Shown: positions 4,547 to 20,371 of the stretch, piece by piece
Layout of the letters: every line of letters begins with the position of its first letter
Position numbering within the stretch: the stretch's first letter is position 1
IMG/VR virus record: IMGVR_UViG_3300006868_000148
Span: 1 to 21,168 of that record
Reading direction: 5' to 3' (one strand)
Length of the DNA stretch: 21,168 bases
DNA from: a virus
Notes under the pieces: model-generated
Databases searched by the model: none
What the model was told of the DNA's origin: nothing
What the model saw: only the letters and a program-made list of their open reading frames with translations
Position numbers and translations under genes: made by a program

Positions 4547-4570
4547 GGGGGGTTGACAGACCCCCTTTTT
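4547..4570 (+). terminator. Rho-independent terminator ending the structural block
   Basis: GGGGG (within 4547-4552), an 8-base loop, CCCCC (4561-4565) and five T (4566-4570) form a textbook intrinsic terminator 9 bases after the stop of the 127-aa gene. Its loop contains the TTGACA of the next promoter. Confidence 0.9.
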
Positions 4571-4581
4571 AGTGCTATTCT
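4553..4581 (+). promoter_or_regulatory. Sigma70-type promoter embedded in the terminator
   Basis: TTGACA at 4553-4558 is a perfect -35 box. It is followed after exactly 17 bases by TATTCT at 4576-4581, a good -10 box. The expected start of transcription is near 4588, giving a leader of about 45 bases before the ATG at 4634. The host RNA polymerase could read this early in infection. Confidence 0.75.
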
Positions 4582-4633
4582 TATCTCATGCCTCAACAAT
4601 GTTGAGCATACCGAACAATCACTTTTAATAATT

Positions 4634-5713
4634 ATGTCCTTCAAAAAAGTTTTTATTGATCAGGCAAAACCGTTTGATCTTACAGTATTAGAAGTAGATG
4701 CTTCTGATAGTCCTACATATCCACTTTTGGAATTTGTTGGATTTGGAGTGAAGATGCTTATGGATATTGTAGCTACAGATGCTAACTATCCTCGTAAAAA
4801 TGAAATCTGGCAAGGTAAATTAGATGGATTGATCGCATCTACTTCAGATTTTTGCTGGCTTACTAAAGCATGGCCTATCAGTGTTTTTATTGATAGCAAC
4901 AAAGATGAGTGGCAATTTGATCATCGTCACTTAAAGCGAGCACTTTCAGAAAACGGATGGAATAGTGCTCCTGTTGCTTATTATAAGCGTAAAAAGACTG
5001 GTAACGAGTTGCTTGATAGTCTTTCTGATTCTTCTGTCATGACATTGATGGGTCTATATGTCAATGCTACTGATGGTGGCAACCCAGAAAATGCTTCTAG
5101 AGATGATTTTAAAATCGTTTCCCGTATTATGGATGATGAACAACTTCCTCGTACCGAAAAAAATGTTAATACTCTTTTAGGAGTTACTGGTATTTACAAT
5201 CGTTTTCCTAAGAAAGGGCATAAGTCTACTATCGGCAATATCCGTAATGAGATTATCGAAAACAAGAAGAAGTCTACTCGTGTGTTTAACACTTCCAAAG
5301 TAGAAGTTGACGATTGGATTCGTTCTAACCCTATGTTTGGGAAGAACAACTATTCTTCTGTTGATGGTGTATCTACTCGCCATAAAGTTCTTGATAAATC
5401 ATTTACTTATCGTTATGCTAACGATATCCTTAAGTGGGCATTTGAAGCATGGGTGAAAGGTGAGCGTGTACGAATTTCTGCTGGCAGCTATGCTATCTGT
5501 GAAAGTGAAATCGAGGTTGAGCGTCAAGAAATAGTTGATGCCATCAAAGATATTCTCAACAACACTATCAATTGGTATATTTCTAAGGTAGAAAATATGC
5601 TTTCCATTCTCAGCATCAAGCTTCCTCATGTTGATGCTAACGACTTGCCAATTGATTTGTACTGGATCCCTCAAATTGAGGGGGAAATTGAAGCAATTCG
5701 TGTACCTCTTTGA
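4634..5713 (+). CDS. Unknown 359-aa protein with a possible ParB-like motif
   Basis: The start is set at the ATG at 4634. An upstream in-frame TTG at 4553 is the -35 box of the promoter and cannot be the start. Around residues 85-115 a strand is followed by F-D-H-R-H-L-K-R-A-L (95-104), then a G-W and a P-V strand. This resembles the G-H-R turn and following helix of ParB/Srx-like domains, where a His/Arg pair sits before an Ala-Leu helix. The rest, including a Lys-rich middle (about 225-260) and a helical C-terminus, is unrecognised. The gene has its own promoter and terminator, so it is a single-gene unit just before the helicase cassette. DNA binding or nuclease function is a hypothesis only. 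Confidence 0.75.
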   Translation: MSFKKVFIDQAKPFDLTVLEVDASDSPTYPLLEFVGFGVKMLMDIVATDANYPRKNEIWQGKLDGLIASTSDFCWLTKAWPISVFIDSNKDEWQFDHRHLKRALSENGWNSAPVAYYKRKKTGNELLDSLSDSSVMTLMGLYVNATDGGNPENASRDDFKIVSRIMDDEQLPRTEKNVNTLLGVTGIYNRFPKKGHKSTIGNIRNEIIENKKKSTRVFNTSKVEVDDWIRSNPMFGKNNYSSVDGVSTRHKVLDKSFTYRYANDILKWAFEAWVKGERVRISAGSYAICESEIEVERQEIVDAIKDILNNTINWYISKVENMLSILSIKLPHVDANDLPIDLYWIPQIEGEIEAIRVPL

Positions 5714-5724: not shown

Positions 5725-5748
5725 ACCGCTCCCCTGGGGGCGGTTTTC
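5725..5748 (+). terminator. Rho-independent terminator after the 359-aa gene
   Basis: An 8-bp stem (5725-5732 with 5737-5744, one G-T pair) closes a 4-base loop and is followed by TTTTC. It lies 12 bases after the TGA at 5711-5713 and separates this gene from the helicase cassette. Confidence 0.8.
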
Positions 5749-5751
5749 TGC

Positions 5752-5757
5752 TATAAT
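5752..5757 (+). promoter_or_regulatory. -10 box for the helicase cassette
   Basis: TATAAT is a perfect -10 hexamer 26 bases before the helicase ATG. No TTGACA-like box is present 16-18 bases upstream; that position is occupied by the terminator hairpin. The TGTCACA dyad at 5718 may substitute for a -35 contact. Confidence 0.55.
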
Positions 5758-5782: not shown

Positions 5783-7027
5783 ATGCTCACTCTTCGTCCT
5801 CACCAGCAGCGCGCTCTTGCTGCTCTTGAGAACAATACTCACGGTCAGGTCATCGTTCCTACGGGCGGTGGCAAGACTCTTGTCATGATCAAGGACACTG
5901 AGCGCCGTCTGCTCGCTGCTGAGACCCCCCAGACCATCGTTGTGGTTGCCCCACGTATTCTGCTGGCAAACCAACTGTGTGATGAGTTCTGGACTGCTCT
6001 CAACGGCACTGTCAATGCTGAGGTCTTCCACGTTCATAGTGGTGAGACTTCCTTTGCTAGCAGCACCAAAGTTCAGCAAATCCAATGTCATCACGCTGTC
6101 TGTAAGACTGCTGGTGTTCATGAGATTATCTTCACCACCTACAATTCTCTTCGTCGTATCGTAGAGGCAGAGATCAACATCGATGTCATCTATTACGACG
6201 AGGCACACAATGCTGTTCAACGTCATTTCTTTGAGTCTGTGCTCAACGTTGACGCTACCAACTATTATTTCTTCACTGCTACTCCTAAGCACACCCGTTC
6301 TACTGGTCGTGGCATGAACAACCGTGTTGTTTATGGTCCTGTGCTTGAGTCTGTTCCTGCTCCTGAGCTTGTCAACAGCGGCAGCATTCTGTCTCCTGAA
6401 GTAATCTCTTACGAGGTTGACTTCGAACGTGTCAAGGGTCAGTTTTCCTACGAATCTGACAAGGACACTCTCACTAATCTCATCAATGACATTGATGCTG
6501 ATGGTAACAAGATCCTGGTTGCTGCTCCTAGCAGCAAAGTCATGTTCAACTTGCTGTTTAAGACTGGCATCCTTGAGTTCTTCCATGACAAAGGTTATGA
6601 TGTGCTTCACATCACCAGCAAGTATGGTGCTTATGTGAACAAGACCAAGGTCAACCGTGAGCAGTTCTTTGACACCTTCAATGCTTGGGGCAAAGATCCT
6701 AGCCGTAAGTTCGTGATCTTCCACTACAGCATCCTGTCTGAAGGCATCAACGTCCACGGTCTAACACACTGTGTGTTCCTTCGTCAACTGGATGTCATCC
6801 AAATGGCACAAACTGTCGGTCGTGTTATCCGTCTTAACAAAGACGACGCTGCTGACATTGCTTGTGGTAAGATTACCCCAGGCAAGTTCGAGATGTATCG
6901 TAAGTCCACTGGCAAGGTCATCGTGCCTGTCTTCAAGAACTACGGTGCTCCTACTATCAAACGCCTTCAAAACCTTGTCGATACTATCTTCGTCAAGGGT
7001 CTCCCCGCTGTTTCTGTCACTGTCTGA
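5783..7027 (+). CDS. Superfamily 2 DEAH-box helicase (414 aa)
   Basis: The ATG at 5783 follows an AAGG ribosome-binding site. Conserved helicase motifs appear in order: an R-P-H-Q-Q-R-A Q-motif-like N-terminus (5-11), Walker A PTGGGKT (26-32), DEAH (139-142), TAT (motif III, 165-167) and motif VI QTVGRVIR (343-350). It is therefore an ATP-dependent nucleic-acid helicase or translocase of the ResIII/UvsW-like type, acting on phage or host DNA. At 414 residues it is close to a bare helicase core, with no clear extra domain. It is followed 2 bases later by an HNH nuclease, then a DNA methylase, and the three look like one transcription unit. The gene is visibly more GC-rich than its upstream neighbours (about 53% against 35% in one 60-base stretch of each). 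Confidence 0.9.
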   Translation: MLTLRPHQQRALAALENNTHGQVIVPTGGGKTLVMIKDTERRLLAAETPQTIVVVAPRILLANQLCDEFWTALNGTVNAEVFHVHSGETSFASSTKVQQIQCHHAVCKTAGVHEIIFTTYNSLRRIVEAEINIDVIYYDEAHNAVQRHFFESVLNVDATNYYFFTATPKHTRSTGRGMNNRVVYGPVLESVPAPELVNSGSILSPEVISYEVDFERVKGQFSYESDKDTLTNLINDIDADGNKILVAAPSSKVMFNLLFKTGILEFFHDKGYDVLHITSKYGAYVNKTKVNREQFFDTFNAWGKDPSRKFVIFHYSILSEGINVHGLTHCVFLRQLDVIQMAQTVGRVIRLNKDDAADIACGKITPGKFEMYRKSTGKVIVPVFKNYGAPTIKRLQNLVDTIFVKGLPAVSVTV

Positions 7028-7029
7028 TC

Positions 7030-7998
7030 ATGGAATCCACTCGTATCACTGGTCACCAAATTCTTACCTGGGAACAGGTACAGGGTCTCCTGGCAAATGA
7101 GGAGACCTTGCTAGCTGGAGGTGCTGCTATTCGTGAGAAAGCATACACTGTAGACACTACCTGGGCAGCAGCAGAGGAGTATTACTACGCTCACAGCACT
7201 GCTGATCGTGCCCTGATTCGTAAGACTGGGCAGCAGAATCAGATCGGTTGGTGGGATCCTGCTACCCAGACTCACACAGACAATCCTACCCATGCTCGTG
7301 GCATCCTGGTCTGTCAAATGTACCTGAACCAGGATCGTAAGTGTGCTTACACTGGCACTGGTCCCTACAGCATTCTTGACTACCAAGTAGAGCACATTGA
7401 GCCCAATGGTGGTGATCATCCCGACAACATGCTGCTGGTAGTTTACAACGTCAATGAAAACCGTAAGCAGTCCACCATGGATGGGTTCATTGCCCGCTGG
7501 CGCAAACGTGCTTCCAAGGGAATGGAAGAATACAACAAATGGTACGATGATACCATGAAAGCATCTGCTAAGGGGCAGAAAGAGAAGGTTAAGATTCTCA
7601 GTATGGACGAAGAAGAACTGAGAACCTTTGCTCCTATCTGTGCCAAGAAGTACCACAAATATATGTGGAGAAACATTGGTATGTCATCCCTCCAACCTTT
7701 CCGTTTGACTAAGAAAGGTGTGGCACGTGCTGGTGGCAGTCAGGGCAACTACAAAGAGGTTCTCAACACTGTCCTACAAGAGTATTTGTATGGAGACAAG
7801 AATCTGGCAGCACAGATCTTCCACACTGTTCGCTCTGGTGCTGACCGCTATGTTCGTGGATTCATCAACAATACGGATTATGTTGAGATGATGTGTGCTG
7901 CCATTGAGTTGTCAAATCACGTGGCAGTAGAGTATAATAAGGAAAAGTTCACCGCCAAAGTCCTCCGTAACACCTATTCATGGCCCCATCTAAAGTAA
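7030..7998 (+). CDS. HNH endonuclease, helicase-linked (322 aa)
   Basis: The ATG at 7030 comes 2 bases after the helicase TGA. The central HNH (beta-beta-alpha metal) motif is clear: C105-A-Y-T-G, then E121-H122-I with the catalytic-type His, a D-N at 132-133, and N-E-N-R-K at 142-146. No second CxxC pair is evident, so a structural zinc is doubtful. About 100 residues before and 170 after the motif are unrecognised; the C-terminal part is helical and Lys-rich, possibly for DNA binding. The tail of the gene overlaps the Dam methylase by 19 bases. Coupling to a helicase and a methylase suggests a DNA-processing role or attack on competing DNA, rather than a free-standing homing endonuclease; that part is inference. 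Confidence 0.8.
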   Translation: MESTRITGHQILTWEQVQGLLANEETLLAGGAAIREKAYTVDTTWAAAEEYYYAHSTADRALIRKTGQQNQIGWWDPATQTHTDNPTHARGILVCQMYLNQDRKCAYTGTGPYSILDYQVEHIEPNGGDHPDNMLLVVYNVNENRKQSTMDGFIARWRKRASKGMEEYNKWYDDTMKASAKGQKEKVKILSMDEEELRTFAPICAKKYHKYMWRNIGMSSLQPFRLTKKGVARAGGSQGNYKEVLNTVLQEYLYGDKNLAAQIFHTVRSGADRYVRGFINNTDYVEMMCAAIELSNHVAVEYNKEKFTAKVLRNTYSWPHLK

Positions 7999-8819
7999 CA
8001 AACCATTCTCTCTACCGCTATGCTGGTGGGAAGAATCGTATGAAGAAGGATCTTATCAAGATTATTCGTGATGTCAACCCAGGCATCGAATATCTTGTGT
8101 CGCCCTTCTGGGGTGGTGCTAGCACTGAAATGCTGATCGCCAGTGAGGGAGTCAAGGTCCAAGGTTACGACGTGTTTCGCCCTCTGGCTGACTTCTGGGA
8201 GATTGTGTGTGGTGAGGGTGGTGCTGCCATCCTGGCAGACGCTGCTGAGCAGCACTACCCCTTAATTGATAGCGATCACTACAAATCCTTCCTCCCAGGG
8301 TTGGATAGTGAGGACAAGTGGGAACGAGCACTGTCATTTTACATTGCAATCAAGGGTTCGTACTCAGGTAAGATCGGATGTTCTACCGTTCGTAGTAGAG
8401 CAGAGTTCAGATTGGTGGGAATTGATAAACTTAGGAATTTTCATGCTCCCAACGTGACGTTCTGCCATGGGTCGTGCTTCGACACGATCCCAGCACACGA
8501 AAATGACTTTTTATACCTGGATCCACCATATTATGAGACTGTGAGCCATTACTATGGCAAAGATGGTGCTCTCCACAAGTCATTTGACCACGAGAGGTTC
8601 TGTGATACCTTGAAGCAACATAAAGGTGGGTTCGTGATGTCCTATGACAACAGCGATGCTGTACGCTCACTCTATCAGGGGTGGACTGAGTTCAGGTATC
8701 TTACATTCCCATACCAGATGTCTGGCACCAAGCGTTACGAGAAGACTGAACTGGTTATTGTTAAATACCCTGAGAAGGTGAAACCTAAAGTTGGTGCTTT
8801 GGAGGCATTTATGGTATGA
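7980..8819 (+). CDS. dam: Dam-type DNA N6-adenine methyltransferase (279 aa)
   Basis: The ATG at 7980 lies inside the end of the HNH gene, so translation is likely coupled. Class D12 (Dam) motifs are in the usual order: Y14-A-G-G-K18 (SAM-binding motif X), S-P-F-W-G-G-A-S near residues 41-48 (motif I, normally E-P-F-x-G) and D181-P-P-Y-Y185 (motif IV, catalytic). It would transfer a methyl group from S-adenosylmethionine to adenine N6, classically in GATC. The length matches the family. Methylation may protect phage DNA, possibly from its own cassette nuclease or from host restriction. The motif I glutamate is replaced by serine, a small departure from the consensus. Confidence 0.9.
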   Translation: MAPSKVTNHSLYRYAGGKNRMKKDLIKIIRDVNPGIEYLVSPFWGGASTEMLIASEGVKVQGYDVFRPLADFWEIVCGEGGAAILADAAEQHYPLIDSDHYKSFLPGLDSEDKWERALSFYIAIKGSYSGKIGCSTVRSRAEFRLVGIDKLRNFHAPNVTFCHGSCFDTIPAHENDFLYLDPPYYETVSHYYGKDGALHKSFDHERFCDTLKQHKGGFVMSYDNSDAVRSLYQGWTEFRYLTFPYQMSGTKRYEKTELVIVKYPEKVKPKVGALEAFMV

Positions 8820-9469
8820 ATGTAATTAAACACACAAAGTATATCTGGGAACTGGAAGACTTCGTTCCTCATAGTGAGATTGATTACTTCCTGGGTATGT
8901 TTGAATTCTATAGCCCAGATCTCAAAGAACAGTTCAGAAATACTTCACGGGAGAATGACACATATATTGCTACAGATCATCCAGAGATGGATGAAATGGC
9001 ATGGAAATGGGTCAACAGAGCTAATCAATACTATGTAAGAGAGAATCGATTCATCTACTATAACTGGGAGAAGGATCAGATGGTTAGTGGTAATGGTGAT
9101 GATGATTCTACAATTTGGCGTGGACAAAATGTGATTCGTATCTATAATGAGAGTGATTCATACGATTGGCACGGAGATCAATCACCAGCAAATCATGCTG
9201 AGTTTTCTTATATCATCTATTTGAATGATGACTTTGATGGTGGTGACACAAGGTTTATGAACGATAAACTATCTGTGACACCAAAGAAAGGTACAGTATT
9301 GTGTTTCCCTGTTGATCACTATCATATCCATAAAGGTGTGAAAGTAACAGGTGGAGTCAAGAAGATTCTGTGGAACTGTGTCTATCGTCATGAGATACAA
9401 ATGATGGCTAAGCAACCTTTTCTTACAGCTGTCGATGTTCCTAGATCTTCTAAGAGGTGTATATGGTAA
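8816..9469 (+). CDS. 2-oxoglutarate/Fe(II)-dependent oxygenase (217 aa), copy 1
   Basis: The ATG overlaps the Dam stop codon by four bases, and a GGAGG lies at 8801-8805. The P4H-like double-stranded beta-helix signature is visible: H119-x-D121 and a distal H172 as iron ligands. K182 lies ten residues after the distal His, where Arg or Lys binds 2-oxoglutarate. An F-D-G-G-D-T turn sits between them. It should oxidise a substrate, protein side chain or small molecule, using O2 and 2-oxoglutarate; the substrate is not predictable. It is one of four such genes in about 6 kb. Confidence 0.85.
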   Translation: MNVIKHTKYIWELEDFVPHSEIDYFLGMFEFYSPDLKEQFRNTSRENDTYIATDHPEMDEMAWKWVNRANQYYVRENRFIYYNWEKDQMVSGNGDDDSTIWRGQNVIRIYNESDSYDWHGDQSPANHAEFSYIIYLNDDFDGGDTRFMNDKLSVTPKKGTVLCFPVDHYHIHKGVKVTGGVKKILWNCVYRHEIQMMAKQPFLTAVDVPRSSKRCIW

Positions 9470-9699
9470 ACACATACTATGCTACATTACTATCAGTATT
9501 TGCTGTTATTGTAGTTTTAATTGCTATCGATCCTAACGTCGGTGTGTACATAGATTTACAGTTCCGTAATTTAATCGTACAGATCAAACGTTTCTATTAT
9601 CTGTTGACTATTGGTGCTCAGGTAAAGTATACTAATTGGAAACTCGGTAGAGAAATAAAGAAAATACAGAGAGAATACGGTATTCCAGATGAAGAATGA
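9463..9699 (+). CDS. Small single-span membrane protein (78 aa)
   Basis: The start is placed at the ATG at 9463, which has AGAGG (9453-9457) at a 5-base spacing; an in-frame GTG six bases earlier has no such spacing. The N-terminal 20-odd residues form one hydrophobic helix (about residues 6-22), followed by an amphipathic, basic cytoplasmic-type tail. It overlaps both neighbouring oxygenase genes, so it is probably cotranscribed with them. No family recognised. Confidence 0.7.
   Translation: MVNTYYATLLSVFAVIVVLIAIDPNVGVYIDLQFRNLIVQIKRFYYLLTIGAQVKYTNWKLGREIKKIQREYGIPDEE
9604..9633 (+). promoter_or_regulatory. Possible internal sigma70 promoter
   Basis: TTGACT (9604-9609), an 18-base spacer and TATACT (9628-9633) lie inside the small membrane protein gene. 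They are about 55 bases before the second oxygenase ATG at 9689. The match is fair but sits in coding sequence. Confidence 0.3.
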
Positions 9700-10234
9700 A
9701 TTAATGGATTATGTGATGGTTGATAATATCTTCACACCCGAAGAATGTCAATCATACATCAGTAAATTAGATCGAAATCATTGGGGACCACATAGATGGT
9801 ATCAAAATGCTAATGATGAATTTCATAATGTCAAAGACTTTAGTGTAACTTATGATATTGAAGTACAGAATCTAATGAAAGATCCTGTCATGAAGTTTGC
9901 TGCCAAGTATTTTAATACACACAGACAAGGTGGAGATCCAGAGTGTCAATTCTCTGGAGTTAGATACAACAAATATTCTATTGGTGAAAGTATTCGTAGT
10001 CATGTAGATCATATCCACAGTTTATTTGATGGCAAGAAGCGAGGTATTCCAGTCATCAGTTTTGTTGGTGTGTTTAATGATGACTATGAGGGTGGTGATT
10101 TTATTTTGTGTGGAGAGAAAGTGGATCTAAAGCAGGGTGACTGTGTTATATTTCCATCAGTCTTTCTCTATCCACATGAGGTCACTCCTGTTACGAAAGG
10201 CTCACGATACTCTTGGGTCTTGTGGTCCTGGTGA
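9689..10234 (+). CDS. 2-oxoglutarate/Fe(II)-dependent oxygenase (181 aa), copy 2
   Basis: The ATG at 9689 lies within the end of the membrane protein gene. The iron triad is H105-x-D107 and H163, and R173 lies ten residues after the distal His to bind 2-oxoglutarate. The sequence P-H-E-V-T-P-V-T-K-G-S-R-Y is the classic P4H-like C-terminal signature, closer to consensus than copy 1. An E-G-G-D turn precedes it. N-terminal residues 8-20 (F-T-P-E-E-C) match the usual start of this family. Substrate unknown. A short gap with no hairpin terminator follows. Confidence 0.88.
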   Translation: MKNELMDYVMVDNIFTPEECQSYISKLDRNHWGPHRWYQNANDEFHNVKDFSVTYDIEVQNLMKDPVMKFAAKYFNTHRQGGDPECQFSGVRYNKYSIGESIRSHVDHIHSLFDGKKRGIPVISFVGVFNDDYEGGDFILCGEKVDLKQGDCVIFPSVFLYPHEVTPVTKGSRYSWVLWSW

Positions 10235-12655: not shown

Positions 12656-13027
12656 ATGACCACCGCCACTGCCACCCGCCAAGAGTTCTCCGACTTCTGT
12701 GCTCAACGTGATGCTCAGAACACCATTCAACTGAATGTCACTAAGTATGGTCTGATGCTCTGTGATGCTCTCACTCAAGGTGCTCCTGATGGTTATGGGT
12801 TCTACCTGGACTCCATGGGTCGTAAGTATCACCGTATCTTCATGACCATTGATGGTGTTCGTAGCAGCATCCATTGCTTCATTGACAAGAAGACTGGTGA
12901 GGTCTACAAACCTGCTAGTTTCAAAGCACCTGCTAAGCACGTTCGTTTCAATCTGCTTGTGATCACCGAACGTGAGTGGTTGCTTCAACATGCTGACTGG
13001 GCTGGAGGTTATTTGTATGTCCGTTGA
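12656..13027 (+). CDS. Unknown protein (123 aa; 143 aa if started at 12596)
   Basis: Two starts are possible: ATG 12596, which overlaps the preceding stop as ATGA, and ATG 12656. The residues between them are Pro/Ser-rich and look untranslated, and a -10 box lies there, so I prefer 12656. The body has a hydrophobic beta stretch with D-G-V-R-S-S-I-H-C-F-I-D-K-K-T-G-E-V-Y-K-P, a typical small beta-hairpin, and a W-rich C-terminus. The 3' end overlaps the next gene by 11 bases. No family recognised. Confidence 0.65.
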   Translation: MTTATATRQEFSDFCAQRDAQNTIQLNVTKYGLMLCDALTQGAPDGYGFYLDSMGRKYHRIFMTIDGVRSSIHCFIDKKTGEVYKPASFKAPAKHVRFNLLVITEREWLLQHADWAGGYLYVR

Positions 13028-13553
13028 TTCACATTACATGTTTACTGTACCTTTGTTTAAAACAAAGGTCACACCATGGAAACACATAAAACAACAAGTA
13101 ATTGACATTGTTGGCAACACTTATCTTGAAGATGAGAGAGGTTTTCTGTCAGACTATTACAACAACAATTATAATGAGAAATTGTATGAGGTGTTGAAAC
13201 CATTTGTTCATGAGATTACTAGTAATTGTCTGAACTTGCCAGCACCCAATGATCCACCTAACATGTGGTCACAGAAGTATTATGCTGGTACAGAGCATCC
13301 GATTCACAATCATGGTAACAGAGGATACTCTTTTATTTTGTACGTGAATTTTGATCCTTCATTACACAAAGCAACTAATTTTATTAGTCCCTTTGATAAT
13401 TTCTTCAGTGGTGACATGCTTTGTTTTGAACCACATCTTGAAGAGGGAGACTTAATTGCTTTCCCTTCAGTAATCAAACACTCATCACAATATCAGACTA
13501 GTGATGAAGAACGAATGATTGTATCATTCAACACGTTTGAAGATGGCATCTAG
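13017..13553 (+). CDS. 2OG-Fe(II) oxygenase-like protein (178 aa), copy 3, variant triad
   Basis: The ATG at 13017 has GGAGG (13004-13008) at 8 bases; the frame extends upstream to 12972, but that part is inside the previous gene. The pattern fits the putative 2OG-oxygenase group with an HxH-type first pair: H97-N-H99-G, then a Y-S-F-I-L-Y-V strand. Later come F-P-S-V-I-K-H155-S and E-R166-M-I-V-S-F-N, placing a distal His and an Arg at the right spacing. The usual aspartate is replaced by histidine, so catalysis is less certain than for the other copies. Confidence 0.7.
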   Translation: MSVDSHYMFTVPLFKTKVTPWKHIKQQVIDIVGNTYLEDERGFLSDYYNNNYNEKLYEVLKPFVHEITSNCLNLPAPNDPPNMWSQKYYAGTEHPIHNHGNRGYSFILYVNFDPSLHKATNFISPFDNFFSGDMLCFEPHLEEGDLIAFPSVIKHSSQYQTSDEERMIVSFNTFEDGI

Positions 13554-14068: not shown

Positions 14069-14280
14069 ATCCCCTTCAACAAGAGCAACAATCTGTGTCC
14101 GAGCAAGTTGATGCCATCATGGCAAATCGTAACCGTCGCTTCAAGTTCCTTATGAAGAAAGATCGTGTTCAAGATGCTATCGCTGTCGGTGAAGAGTTCA
14201 TGGAGTGGATGATGCTTGACCAAGAAGATTGTAATGAGGAGATCCTGTATTTCCGCATCGATGATCTTCAGCAAGTATGA
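14065..14280 (+). CDS. Unknown helical protein (71 aa)
   Basis: It begins by an ATGA overlap and ends by one. The sequence is nearly all helix, with a basic patch (R-N-R-R-F-K-F) and then an acidic C-terminal half. It may be a small dimeric helical protein. No family recognised. Confidence 0.65.
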   Translation: MNPLQQEQQSVSEQVDAIMANRNRRFKFLMKKDRVQDAIAVGEEFMEWMMLDQEDCNEEILYFRIDDLQQV

Positions 14281-14891
14281 AGAAGCACCAAAACATCATT
14301 GAACCACAATCGTGGGCAGTGTATGACTCTCTATTACCTAGAGAGTTGTGTGATGCTATTGTGGAGCACTTTGCTAATCTTCCTGTACAAGCAGGGACAG
14401 CACATGCTCACAAAGGACATCGTAGGTGTGGATTGACTTGGACCAGTCCAGATACTTGGATTGGTCCATTCTTGTGGAAATACATACAACAGACCAATGA
14501 TCGTGTGTTTCAGTATGATATTACTGACACACATATGACTGAGATACATCAACTTGAGTATCGCCCTGGTCACTACTATCATTGGCATGTTGATGATAAC
14601 ATCAGCAACCACATACAATATGCTCCACCACCATTCGGTGTGGCAAGACAAGACATCACAGAGTATGTACGTAAACTATCATTCTCACTCCAATTAACTG
14701 ATCCTAGTGAGTATACTGGTGGTGACGTACAAATCATTGATGATACAGGTGGCAGAGGTATGCTGACAATACCCAAAGAACGTGGTACACTGTGTATATT
14801 CGACTCTAGGACACGTCATAGAGTCAAACCAGTGAAGACTGGTAAACGTTTTGTATTAGTTGGTTGGGTATTAGGACCACGATGGAAGTAA
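14277..14891 (+). CDS. 2-oxoglutarate/Fe(II)-dependent oxygenase (204 aa), copy 4, PKHD-like
   Basis: It starts by an ATGA overlap with the helical 71-aa gene. The iron triad is H104-V-D106 and H181, with R191 ten residues later for 2-oxoglutarate. The context H-W-H-V-D-D and the segment R-K-L-S-F-S-L-Q-L-T-D-P-S-E-Y-T-G-G-D match PKHD-type hydroxylases such as the PiuC group. This is the best preserved of the four copies. Substrate unknown; hydroxylation of a protein or metabolite in the infected cell is the likely chemistry. Confidence 0.9.
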   Translation: MKKHQNIIEPQSWAVYDSLLPRELCDAIVEHFANLPVQAGTAHAHKGHRRCGLTWTSPDTWIGPFLWKYIQQTNDRVFQYDITDTHMTEIHQLEYRPGHYYHWHVDDNISNHIQYAPPPFGVARQDITEYVRKLSFSLQLTDPSEYTGGDVQIIDDTGGRGMLTIPKERGTLCIFDSRTRHRVKPVKTGKRFVLVGWVLGPRWK

Positions 14892-15043
14892 ATATTGAAT
14901 TAGGTGAAGATCTACAGCTAGAGTACGAGTCATGGTTAGCGGTGAAAGAATCGTTAGGCATCGAGCGTACCATCAACAATTTCCTCTATTACACTCACAA
15001 TTATGGTACGTTCGCTAATCCCCGTATTCCTGACGATAGCTAG
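14882..15043 (+). CDS. Small unknown protein overlapping a protease gene (53 aa)
   Basis: The ATG at 14882 overlaps the oxygenase end by 10 bases, and the frame runs to TAG at 15041. The sequence has an acidic helical N-terminal half with L-Q-L-E-Y-E-S-W-L-A and ends in a polar tail. The last 41 bases overlap the next gene in another frame. No family recognised. Confidence 0.6.
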   Translation: MEVNIELGEDLQLEYESWLAVKESLGIERTINNFLYYTHNYGTFANPRIPDDS

Positions 15044-15683
15044 TCTAGGAGTGGCAAACTTCGCTCTCGCTAATGAGACTAAACTCACCAAGGGTTTTTA
15101 TTCCTATGATGCCATGGGATGTATGATCCTTCGTGAGTGTACTGATGATGTTAAAGAAGTGTCCAGTATGTTAGACATCTCATCTAACTATGAGAACATG
15201 GAATCATTCACCTCAGTAACAGCAGAGTTCAACAACATGCTCTCATCACTAGATGATGTTGGTGTGAAAGTGTTCCTTGCTGATGAGAAGTATTTCCCTG
15301 CTGGTCACCGTGGTGTATATCACACAGTGTCCAACAACTTCTTCTTGAATAAAGCATACATGGACAATCCTGGTGTGTTGATGACGGTGATGAGGCATGA
15401 AGGTTGGCATGCAGCACAAGATTGTATGGCAGGTAGCATCAAGAATAGTATGATTGCTATCATTTTACCTGAAGAGGACGTGCCGCCACTGTGGCGTGAG
15501 CTGGTAGAGCGTTCGTATCCTGCCTCAGCGGTCCCCTGGGAGGCAGAGGCAACCTGGGCAGGCAAGACAGAGGGAATGACCATGAAGGCGCTCCAAGCGT
15601 GTGCTGAGGGTAGCATGTGGGAGACCTATGAGCCAACCCCGCTCACCCGTCAATGGTTAGAGGAGGAGGGATTCATAAAGTAA
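15003..15683 (+). CDS. Signal-peptide zinc-metalloprotease-like protein (226 aa)
   Basis: The N-terminus (residues 1-23: MVR, then a hydrophobic stretch ending A-L-A) is a good signal peptide with cleavage after A23, so the mature part would leave the cytoplasm. H132-E133-G-W-H136 is an HExxH zinc motif; E180 or E182 in the following W-E-A-E-A-T segment could be the third ligand. Several cysteines suggest disulfides. The 226 residues suit a small peptidase. A role in the envelope, cell wall or defence against other phages is possible but not shown. The last third is markedly more GC-rich than the first (about 67% against 42% in sample 60-base stretches). Confidence 0.75.
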   Translation: MVRSLIPVFLTIASLGVANFALANETKLTKGFYSYDAMGCMILRECTDDVKEVSSMLDISSNYENMESFTSVTAEFNNMLSSLDDVGVKVFLADEKYFPAGHRGVYHTVSNNFFLNKAYMDNPGVLMTVMRHEGWHAAQDCMAGSIKNSMIAIILPEEDVPPLWRELVERSYPASAVPWEAEATWAGKTEGMTMKALQACAEGSMWETYEPTPLTRQWLEEEGFIK

Positions 15684-19655: not shown

Positions 19656-19788
19656 TGAGTTTAAATGTGTACGCTATCACTCTGTAGCTGATGCTATTGA
19701 CTATGATGATGCTGCTGATGTAGTTAGACACATGTACCCTAATGAACGACTCTTAGGTGTTACTTACACTTCAAATGAAAGACCTTAA
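19630..19788 (+). CDS. Unknown small acidic protein (52 aa)
   Basis: The ATG at 19630 follows AAGAG, a fair ribosome-binding site. The product has an A-D-A-I-D-Y-D-D-A-A-D-V-V run and looks like a small alpha/beta protein. It overlaps the previous frame by 26 bases and the HNH gene by 14. Confidence 0.55.
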   Translation: MYQVQTWDDEFKCVRYHSVADAIDYDDAADVVRHMYPNERLLGVTYTSNERP

Positions 19789-20371
19789 AGAAGTAATATA
19801 CAAAGGTCATGTGATGCCTGGGTATTATATTAATGAATGCTCAGAACTATTCACTACAAGAGTATCTGGCACAATGGGCATTAATCAACATACTAGAAAT
19901 AGATTATCATTACATGCTCATTGCTATGCTCAACCATTACGTCAGATAACAGGTGTCAAGTATAAGACAGGTAAAATACTTTATCGTCTTAAAACTAGAT
20001 ACACTCATTACGAACAATATAATATCCCAGGTAATGAAGTTGGTATACATGCTCATCGATTAGTAATGGAAACATATAATCCTTTCTATAATAATATACC
20101 TACTGACTTACAACCTTATTGGGATTCTCTTCCATCTATTGTACAAGAGTATATCTATAATGGTATGACTGTAGATCATATTAACCCAGATAAATCTAGA
20201 CCTGACTACAATTATCTCTCTAATCTACAGTGGTTAACACATAGAGAAAACATAGGTAAAAGTGATAAAGTATTATACGACTTTTCCACAGTTGCGGAAA
20301 AGGTTGTGGAAAAACCTGTGGAAAAAGAATGTATTAAAAAACATGGGGTAAGTGTTCTATCATTCATTTAA
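19775..20371 (+). CDS. HNH endonuclease, free-standing type (198 aa)
   Basis: Start ATG 19775 lies in the end of the previous gene; the frame extends six codons further back. The N-terminus has P-G-Y-Y-I-N (about 16-21), reminiscent of the NUMOD4 module. The HNH core is clear: A-H-R-L-V-M, then V-D-H135-I-N137, N150-L-Q-W, and H-R-E-N159. Such enzymes cut DNA at one site and often act as mobile homing endonucleases. The gene is A/T-rich. Its last 30 codons carry a V-E-K repeat encoded by the three TTTTCCACA-type sequences, an unusual addition to the usual family end. Confidence 0.8.
   Translation: MKDLKEVIYKGHVMPGYYINECSELFTTRVSGTMGINQHTRNRLSLHAHCYAQPLRQITGVKYKTGKILYRLKTRYTHYEQYNIPGNEVGIHAHRLVMETYNPFYNNIPTDLQPYWDSLPSIVQEYIYNGMTVDHINPDKSRPDYNYLSNLQWLTHRENIGKSDKVLYDFSTVAEKVVEKPVEKECIKKHGVSVLSFI
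20282..20325. other. Cluster of three TTTTCCACA (DnaA-box-like) sites
   Basis: TTTTCCACA at 20282-20290 on the + strand, and its reverse complement TGTGGAAAA at 20305-20313 and 20317-20325. This is the DnaA-box sequence reported for cyanobacteria. All three are exact, within 44 bases; the last two are 12 bases apart. They lie inside the HNH gene, where they spell a V-E-K repeat, so protein-level duplication is an alternative explanation. Confidence 0.55.

Follow-up and report, generated by a model that had tools for sequence, protein, structure and literature searches.

The real unit within a cluster of three genes found in a cyanophage DNA fragment and initially described as a single cassette consists of the HNH nuclease and the D12 methylase, and the trio is not one three-part machine; the two genes rather probably constitute a phage-borne Type II-like restriction-modification pair placed behind a resident helicase gene. 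The elements on which this reading is built can be read from the sequences themselves: linkage and overlap of the two genes, a promoter-like site that is conserved, purifying selection on nuclease and methylase, homologous pairs in other locations and exchange of both the whole block and individual nuclease alleles. The fragment (IMGVR_UViG_3300006868_000148; 21,168 nt, the whole of which is hereafter called the window) belongs to a T4-like cyanophage and carries a short tail fibre, a tail chaperone and several 2OG-Fe(II) oxygenases. The relevant features are the following:

5725–5757, + strand: T-run hairpin preceding an extended −10 (TGCTATAAT), read from the sequence
5783–7027, + strand: DEAH helicase (SF2), 414 aa, assigned by Pfam/PHROG
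7030–7998, + strand: HNH nuclease, 322 aa, with H122, N133 and N142 invariant
7909–7938, + strand: intragenic promoter-like TTGTCA-N18-TATAAT within the nuclease gene, 41 nt upstream of the ATG of the methylase
7980–8819, + strand: D12-class DNA methyltransferase, 279 aa, with RYAGGKN, PFWGG and DPPY motifs

Nuclease and methylase as a linked pair

The gene positions given in the initial annotation, the 2-base gap between helicase and nuclease and the 19-base overlap between nuclease and methylase proved exact when the open reading frames were checked.

The nuclease of the window has no Pfam match; its aligned relatives match HNH_4 (6.7e-6) and HNH (1.4e-4), and the residues found to be invariant among the homologues include the catalytic H and N. 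Phage HNH and endonuclease VII families also gave weak matches, and the predicted model has a core that weakly resembles the HNH nickase 4h9d (Z 4.6) and T4 endonuclease VII (Z 3.5). An HNH of the window type was found in none of the phage records, among which only four of the S-TIM type give a distant match; no plasmid matches the nuclease of contig L088 (see below), and two scans of bacterial genomes, made with narrow peptide patterns only, returned no relatives, a result that is not evidence of absence.

The methylase matches Pfam D12 (2.6e-14) and the PDB entry 7m6b (1.9e-20), its DPPY, PF.GG and GGK motifs are invariant in the close clade and PADLOC scores it as a Type II restriction-modification enzyme (MTase_II, 8e-31) above orphan (3e-15). 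With the canonical cyanophage Dam (e.g., in L046 and L047) it shares the D12 family and the DPP motif but not the genome location, the identity being about 30%; since, moreover, contig G001 carries both, orthology with the replication-region Dam was rejected.

Per-contig counts compiled from the IMG/VR match tables indicate that nuclease and methylase are adjacent in all 38 viral contigs in which both are visible. Helicase, nuclease and methylase follow each other in this order in 35 of them, a few of which end mid-block at the contig ends, and the remaining three contain nuclease and methylase only, two because they end upstream and the third, L088, without this helicase. No nuclease having room downstream lacks the methylase, no methylase at least 73% identical and having room upstream lacks the nuclease, and the two genes overlap in 26 of the 26 loci measured, by 14–28 bases if the start codons are those chosen by the script. 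An unrelated distribution of nuclease and methylase, which the initial annotation had considered fatal to its proposal, is therefore not what is found, the linkage being constant within the close clade. Purifying selection acts on both genes (dN/dS 0.03–0.27), and two properties of Type II systems, namely separate, adjacent nuclease and methylase genes and a methylase with intact catalytic motifs, are present.

Related pairs occur in other surroundings. L088 (IMGVR_UViG_3300002231_000332) encodes a homologous HNH (26% identity) and methylase (65%), its 49 kb contain none of these helicases, and directly downstream of the pair lie a MvaI/BcnI-family endonuclease (4.5e-17) and an N6/N4 methylase. 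This viral contig is rich in restriction-type genes, with these two clustered with a weak MunI-like ORF at 7073–9231 and another D12 methylase located where the contig ends. In cyanophage S-TIM5, and likewise in L222 and L223, the gene of a related HNH protein diverges from that of a C5 methylase; the S-TIM5 proteins (AEZ65730 and AEZ65729, respectively) resemble the window pair in having a related HNH region (25–28% identity) and a methylase neighbor and differ from it in the C5 class of the methylase, in the divergent orientation and in the greater length of the HNH protein, which is annotated as virion structural. As to viral precedents, chloroviruses and marseilleviruses carry working restriction-modification systems that likewise consist of virus-borne, adjacent endonuclease and methylase genes and for which an attack on host or rival DNA has been proposed (PMC7019647, PMC7253447); their hosts are eukaryotic and their nucleases different, whereas the window pair, a candidate system, resides in a T4-like cyanophage.

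The restriction-type pairing of nuclease and methylase put forward initially thus gains from the constant linkage in the close clade, from the conservation of the intragenic promoter described below and from the homologues in other nuclease–methylase contexts. On the opposite side stand the lack of a sequence match of the nuclease to known restriction enzymes and of a convincing fold outside the HNH core in a fold search of the predicted model, families not listed there possibly existing. Furthermore, the nuclease of L006 is short by ~45 residues and the methylase homologues at 54–58% identity have no HNH. Several of the latter have, between helicase and methylase, a member of phrog_27790 that is weakly similar to ParB; it is not claimed as a second nuclease type because the mean pLDDT of its predicted model is 40. 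The L006 allele (7986–8846) has undergone its loss in frame (286 vs. 322 aa), keeps the intragenic promoter and is possibly inactive. If the proposed restriction endonuclease and the proposed protective methylase are what they seem, the pair would, on the best reading, represent a new HNH variety.

A promoter-like site within the nuclease gene

The site at 7909–7938 is sigma-70-like and matched 11 of 12 consensus positions in a promoter scan. In 24 of 26 loci a site with 10–11 of 12 consensus positions is found at the same distance from the methylase start; in L026 the site lies 56 nt from the start codon that the script chose, and in L031, whose nuclease allele is divergent, it is absent, which speaks against the restriction-modification reading. 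Since lone promoter-like sites are common in shuffled sequences, the argument for a promoter rests on conservation.

This conservation extends to synonymous positions. Among 13 non-redundant nucleases (<90% identical) the codons TTG, TCA, TAT and AAT of the site are used in 13 of 13, whereas the other conserved columns for the same kinds of residue (five Leu, five Tyr and four Asn) all vary in codon; an invariant codon occurs in only seven of 51 conserved nuclease columns, four of the seven being those of the site. Nowhere else in the three genes do codons vary as little as in the stretch containing it (−0.52), although a methylase stretch is also low (−0.31 to −0.45). The site may accordingly be regarded as a putative methylase promoter under synonymous constraint, and it yields a direct prediction about expression. 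In the methylase, the codons of conserved residues between 121 and 154 (8340–8441) are unusually constant across relatives, which could reflect a hidden signal or an effect of recombination.

The arrangement has a parallel in the Type II operons of EcoRI and Eco29kI, in which the nuclease gene precedes the methylase gene and a separate methylase promoter lies inside the former (PMC3874152). The window pair differs from these in being phage-borne, in having an HNH without match to known restriction enzymes and in the swapping of its nuclease alleles, and it is predicted from sequence. EcoRI-like reverse promoters were also considered and rejected; promoter-like sites are present on the minus strand of the window, and the one at the beginning of the methylase gene is not conserved among relatives.

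Exchange of alleles and possible functions

The synonymous divergence between the window and L004 is 0.43 in the helicase, 0.16 in the nuclease and 0.45 in the methylase and ranges from 1.7 to saturation in the neighboring genes, indicating that the block was exchanged fairly recently between otherwise unlike genomes. In other cases only the nuclease was replaced: its identity is 46% between L034 and L035 and 27% between L028 and L031, that of the methylase being 98% and 95%, respectively, and in 265 of 276 pairs (which are not independent) the methylase is the more similar of the two. Nuclease alleles are thus swapped between phages, between a conserved helicase and a conserved methylase. A turnover of this kind fits fast-evolving restriction enzymes, yet it strains the cognate-pair reading, as a single methylase would have to confer protection from nucleases that differ widely.

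The same data provide the main rival explanation, according to which the HNH is a free-standing homing-type endonuclease that has a resident helicase on one side and an orphan methylase on the other, cuts the alleles of rival phages and is copied in together with its flanks. The family to which the protein belongs and its weak matches to phage HNH and endonuclease VII proteins would suit such an enzyme, as would the replacement of alleles between conserved neighbors and the nucleotide identity between the window and L004, which is highest over the HNH and falls off into the neighbors on either side, as co-conversion would cause it to do. However, no HNH-less, i.e., empty, allele exists among the close helicases or methylases that have room for it, Pfam detects no homing-type DNA-binding module, the gene overlap and the intragenic promoter are kept and related HNH proteins adjoin methylases in unrelated places (L088, S-TIM5). 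We consider this explanation unlikely, albeit the one most deserving of attention after the restriction-modification pair.

Somewhat less likely still is that the pair spreads among co-infecting phages in the manner of a gene drive, rival genomes without the mark being cut and the block, or a new allele, being copied in via recombination. Recombination would make use of the conserved ends in the helicase and methylase genes, and the rapid turnover of nucleases on a constant methylase would belong to the same process.

How would a restriction-modification pair, the reading we prefer, serve the phage? The methylase would be expressed both as part of a longer transcript and independently, from the putative promoter within the nuclease gene, and would mark the phage DNA, so that virion DNA would be already protected upon entering the next cell. 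The nuclease would then cut unmarked DNA, either the host chromosome, as a source of nucleotides and a means of takeover, or the DNA of a co-infecting rival. DNA cutting by the nuclease, the blocking of this cutting by the methylase, the target site and the victim are what we infer from the genes.

Cyanophages of the T4 type lack denA, denB and ndd, the genes for host-DNA degradation in T4, and a review of 2010 left open an undescribed route of host-DNA degradation (PMC2984593); a role of the pair in this process is for this reason worth testing. Since host DNA is degraded also by Syn9 and P-HM2 (PMC7852597), such a role could cover only the pair-bearing phages. If the reading is correct, the nuclease with its protective methylase would be a candidate degradation route limited to this clade or, alternatively, an inter-phage weapon.

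The resident helicase and its surroundings

The first impression, in which the helicase was a working part of the system, must be corrected, for the helicase is background. Its DEAH lies within YYDEAHNA and it matches Pfam ResIII (2.5e-19) and Helicase_C (5.9e-7). Grouping with UvsW, which the initial annotation would have counted against its proposal, applies in part: the protein shares the family of T4 UvsW (phrog_16) but is a shorter second paralogue located in the tail-fibre region, the true UvsW being encoded separately in relatives. In Sf-FP1 and in two pair-bearing contigs a far better phrog_16 match lies elsewhere (1e-123 to 1e-128 vs. 1e-66 to 1e-69), and the identification of the helicase behind which the pair sits as the main UvsW of the genome, i.e., the orthologue, was rejected on these grounds.

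A protein search found helicase homologues in 418 public records of phages whose names denote cyanophages or marine viruses, with identities up to about 65% among the matches listed. The three-gene order recurs in the 35 IMG/VR contigs, but in these records the helicase usually occurs without the pair; in Sf-FP1, for instance, it follows the same kind of tail genes and the pair is absent. All helicases at least 76% identical and having room downstream carry the pair, 20 helicases of 50–66% identity with 4 kb of room have neither nuclease nor methylase, and the pair-bearing rows of the helicase tree are not one clade (AU p = 0.00075). Because of this distribution and of the lack of a single pair-bearing clade the helicase is discounted as a working part; it is a resident cyanophage gene that is probably neither a component of the pair nor needed by it. 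Its role as a translocase subunit and, with it, a Type I/III system having an obligate ATP-dependent translocase were rejected, the helicase being distributed independently of the pair.

The GC content had likewise been taken to set the cassette apart. The three genes are indeed richer (0.47–0.48) than the two genes upstream (0.37–0.40), but the Sf-FP1 helicase has a GC of 0.48 vs. 0.37 upstream without nuclease and methylase, so that the raised GC is a property of the helicase itself and was dismissed as proof of a cassette. The terminator-bounded promoter region postulated upstream fared better: a terminator-like structure, the hairpin ACCGCTCCCC-T-GGGGGCGGT and a run of T, can be read at about 5725–5747 and the extended −10 TGCTATAAT directly after it at 5749–5757, although a terminator scan did not report this hairpin. 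Most close pair-bearing relatives keep both elements 5′ of the helicase, and the region 5725–5757 is the likely promoter of a helicase–nuclease–methylase transcript.

A replication/recombination set, in which the helicase and an endonuclease VII-like HNH resolvase would process branched phage DNA with the methylase being incidental, could account for the UvsW-like nature of the former, for the weak T4 endonuclease VII likeness of the HNH core and for the short or overlapping gene junctions. It is nevertheless improbable: relatives have their true UvsW elsewhere, the helicase occurs in 418 phage records but even a distant HNH in only four, the contig of the L088 pair is devoid of such a helicase and the constant partner of the nuclease is the methylase. 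The three-part ATP-dependent system of translocase, nuclease and modification proposed initially has in its favor the gene order, the ResIII domain and the ability of the trio to move as a block (window/L004 dS), yet it is scarcely credible given the helicases resident in phages without the pair, the dispersal of the pair-bearing ones in the tree and the distant pair of L088 that has none.

Upstream of the helicase there is a variable slot (window 4553–5713, L006 5632–6672, L013 4650–5723, L217 2945–3922), occupied in the window by an orphan 386 aa ORF with no Pfam match and no significant PHROG match, in L006 and L217 by phrog_27790 proteins (weak ParB-like similarity in L006) and in L013 by another ORF having a similar motif by eye. 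Elsewhere in the window, a 226 aa ORF (15003–15683) without Pfam match, whose relatives are 67–89% identical, has a signal-like start and an HExxH-like HEGWH, four genes (8816–9469, 9689–10234, 12972–13553 and 14277–14891) encode 2OG-Fe(II) oxygenases and an HNH_3-type ORF just below the Pfam cut-off (19757–20371) is possibly a free-standing homing endonuclease.
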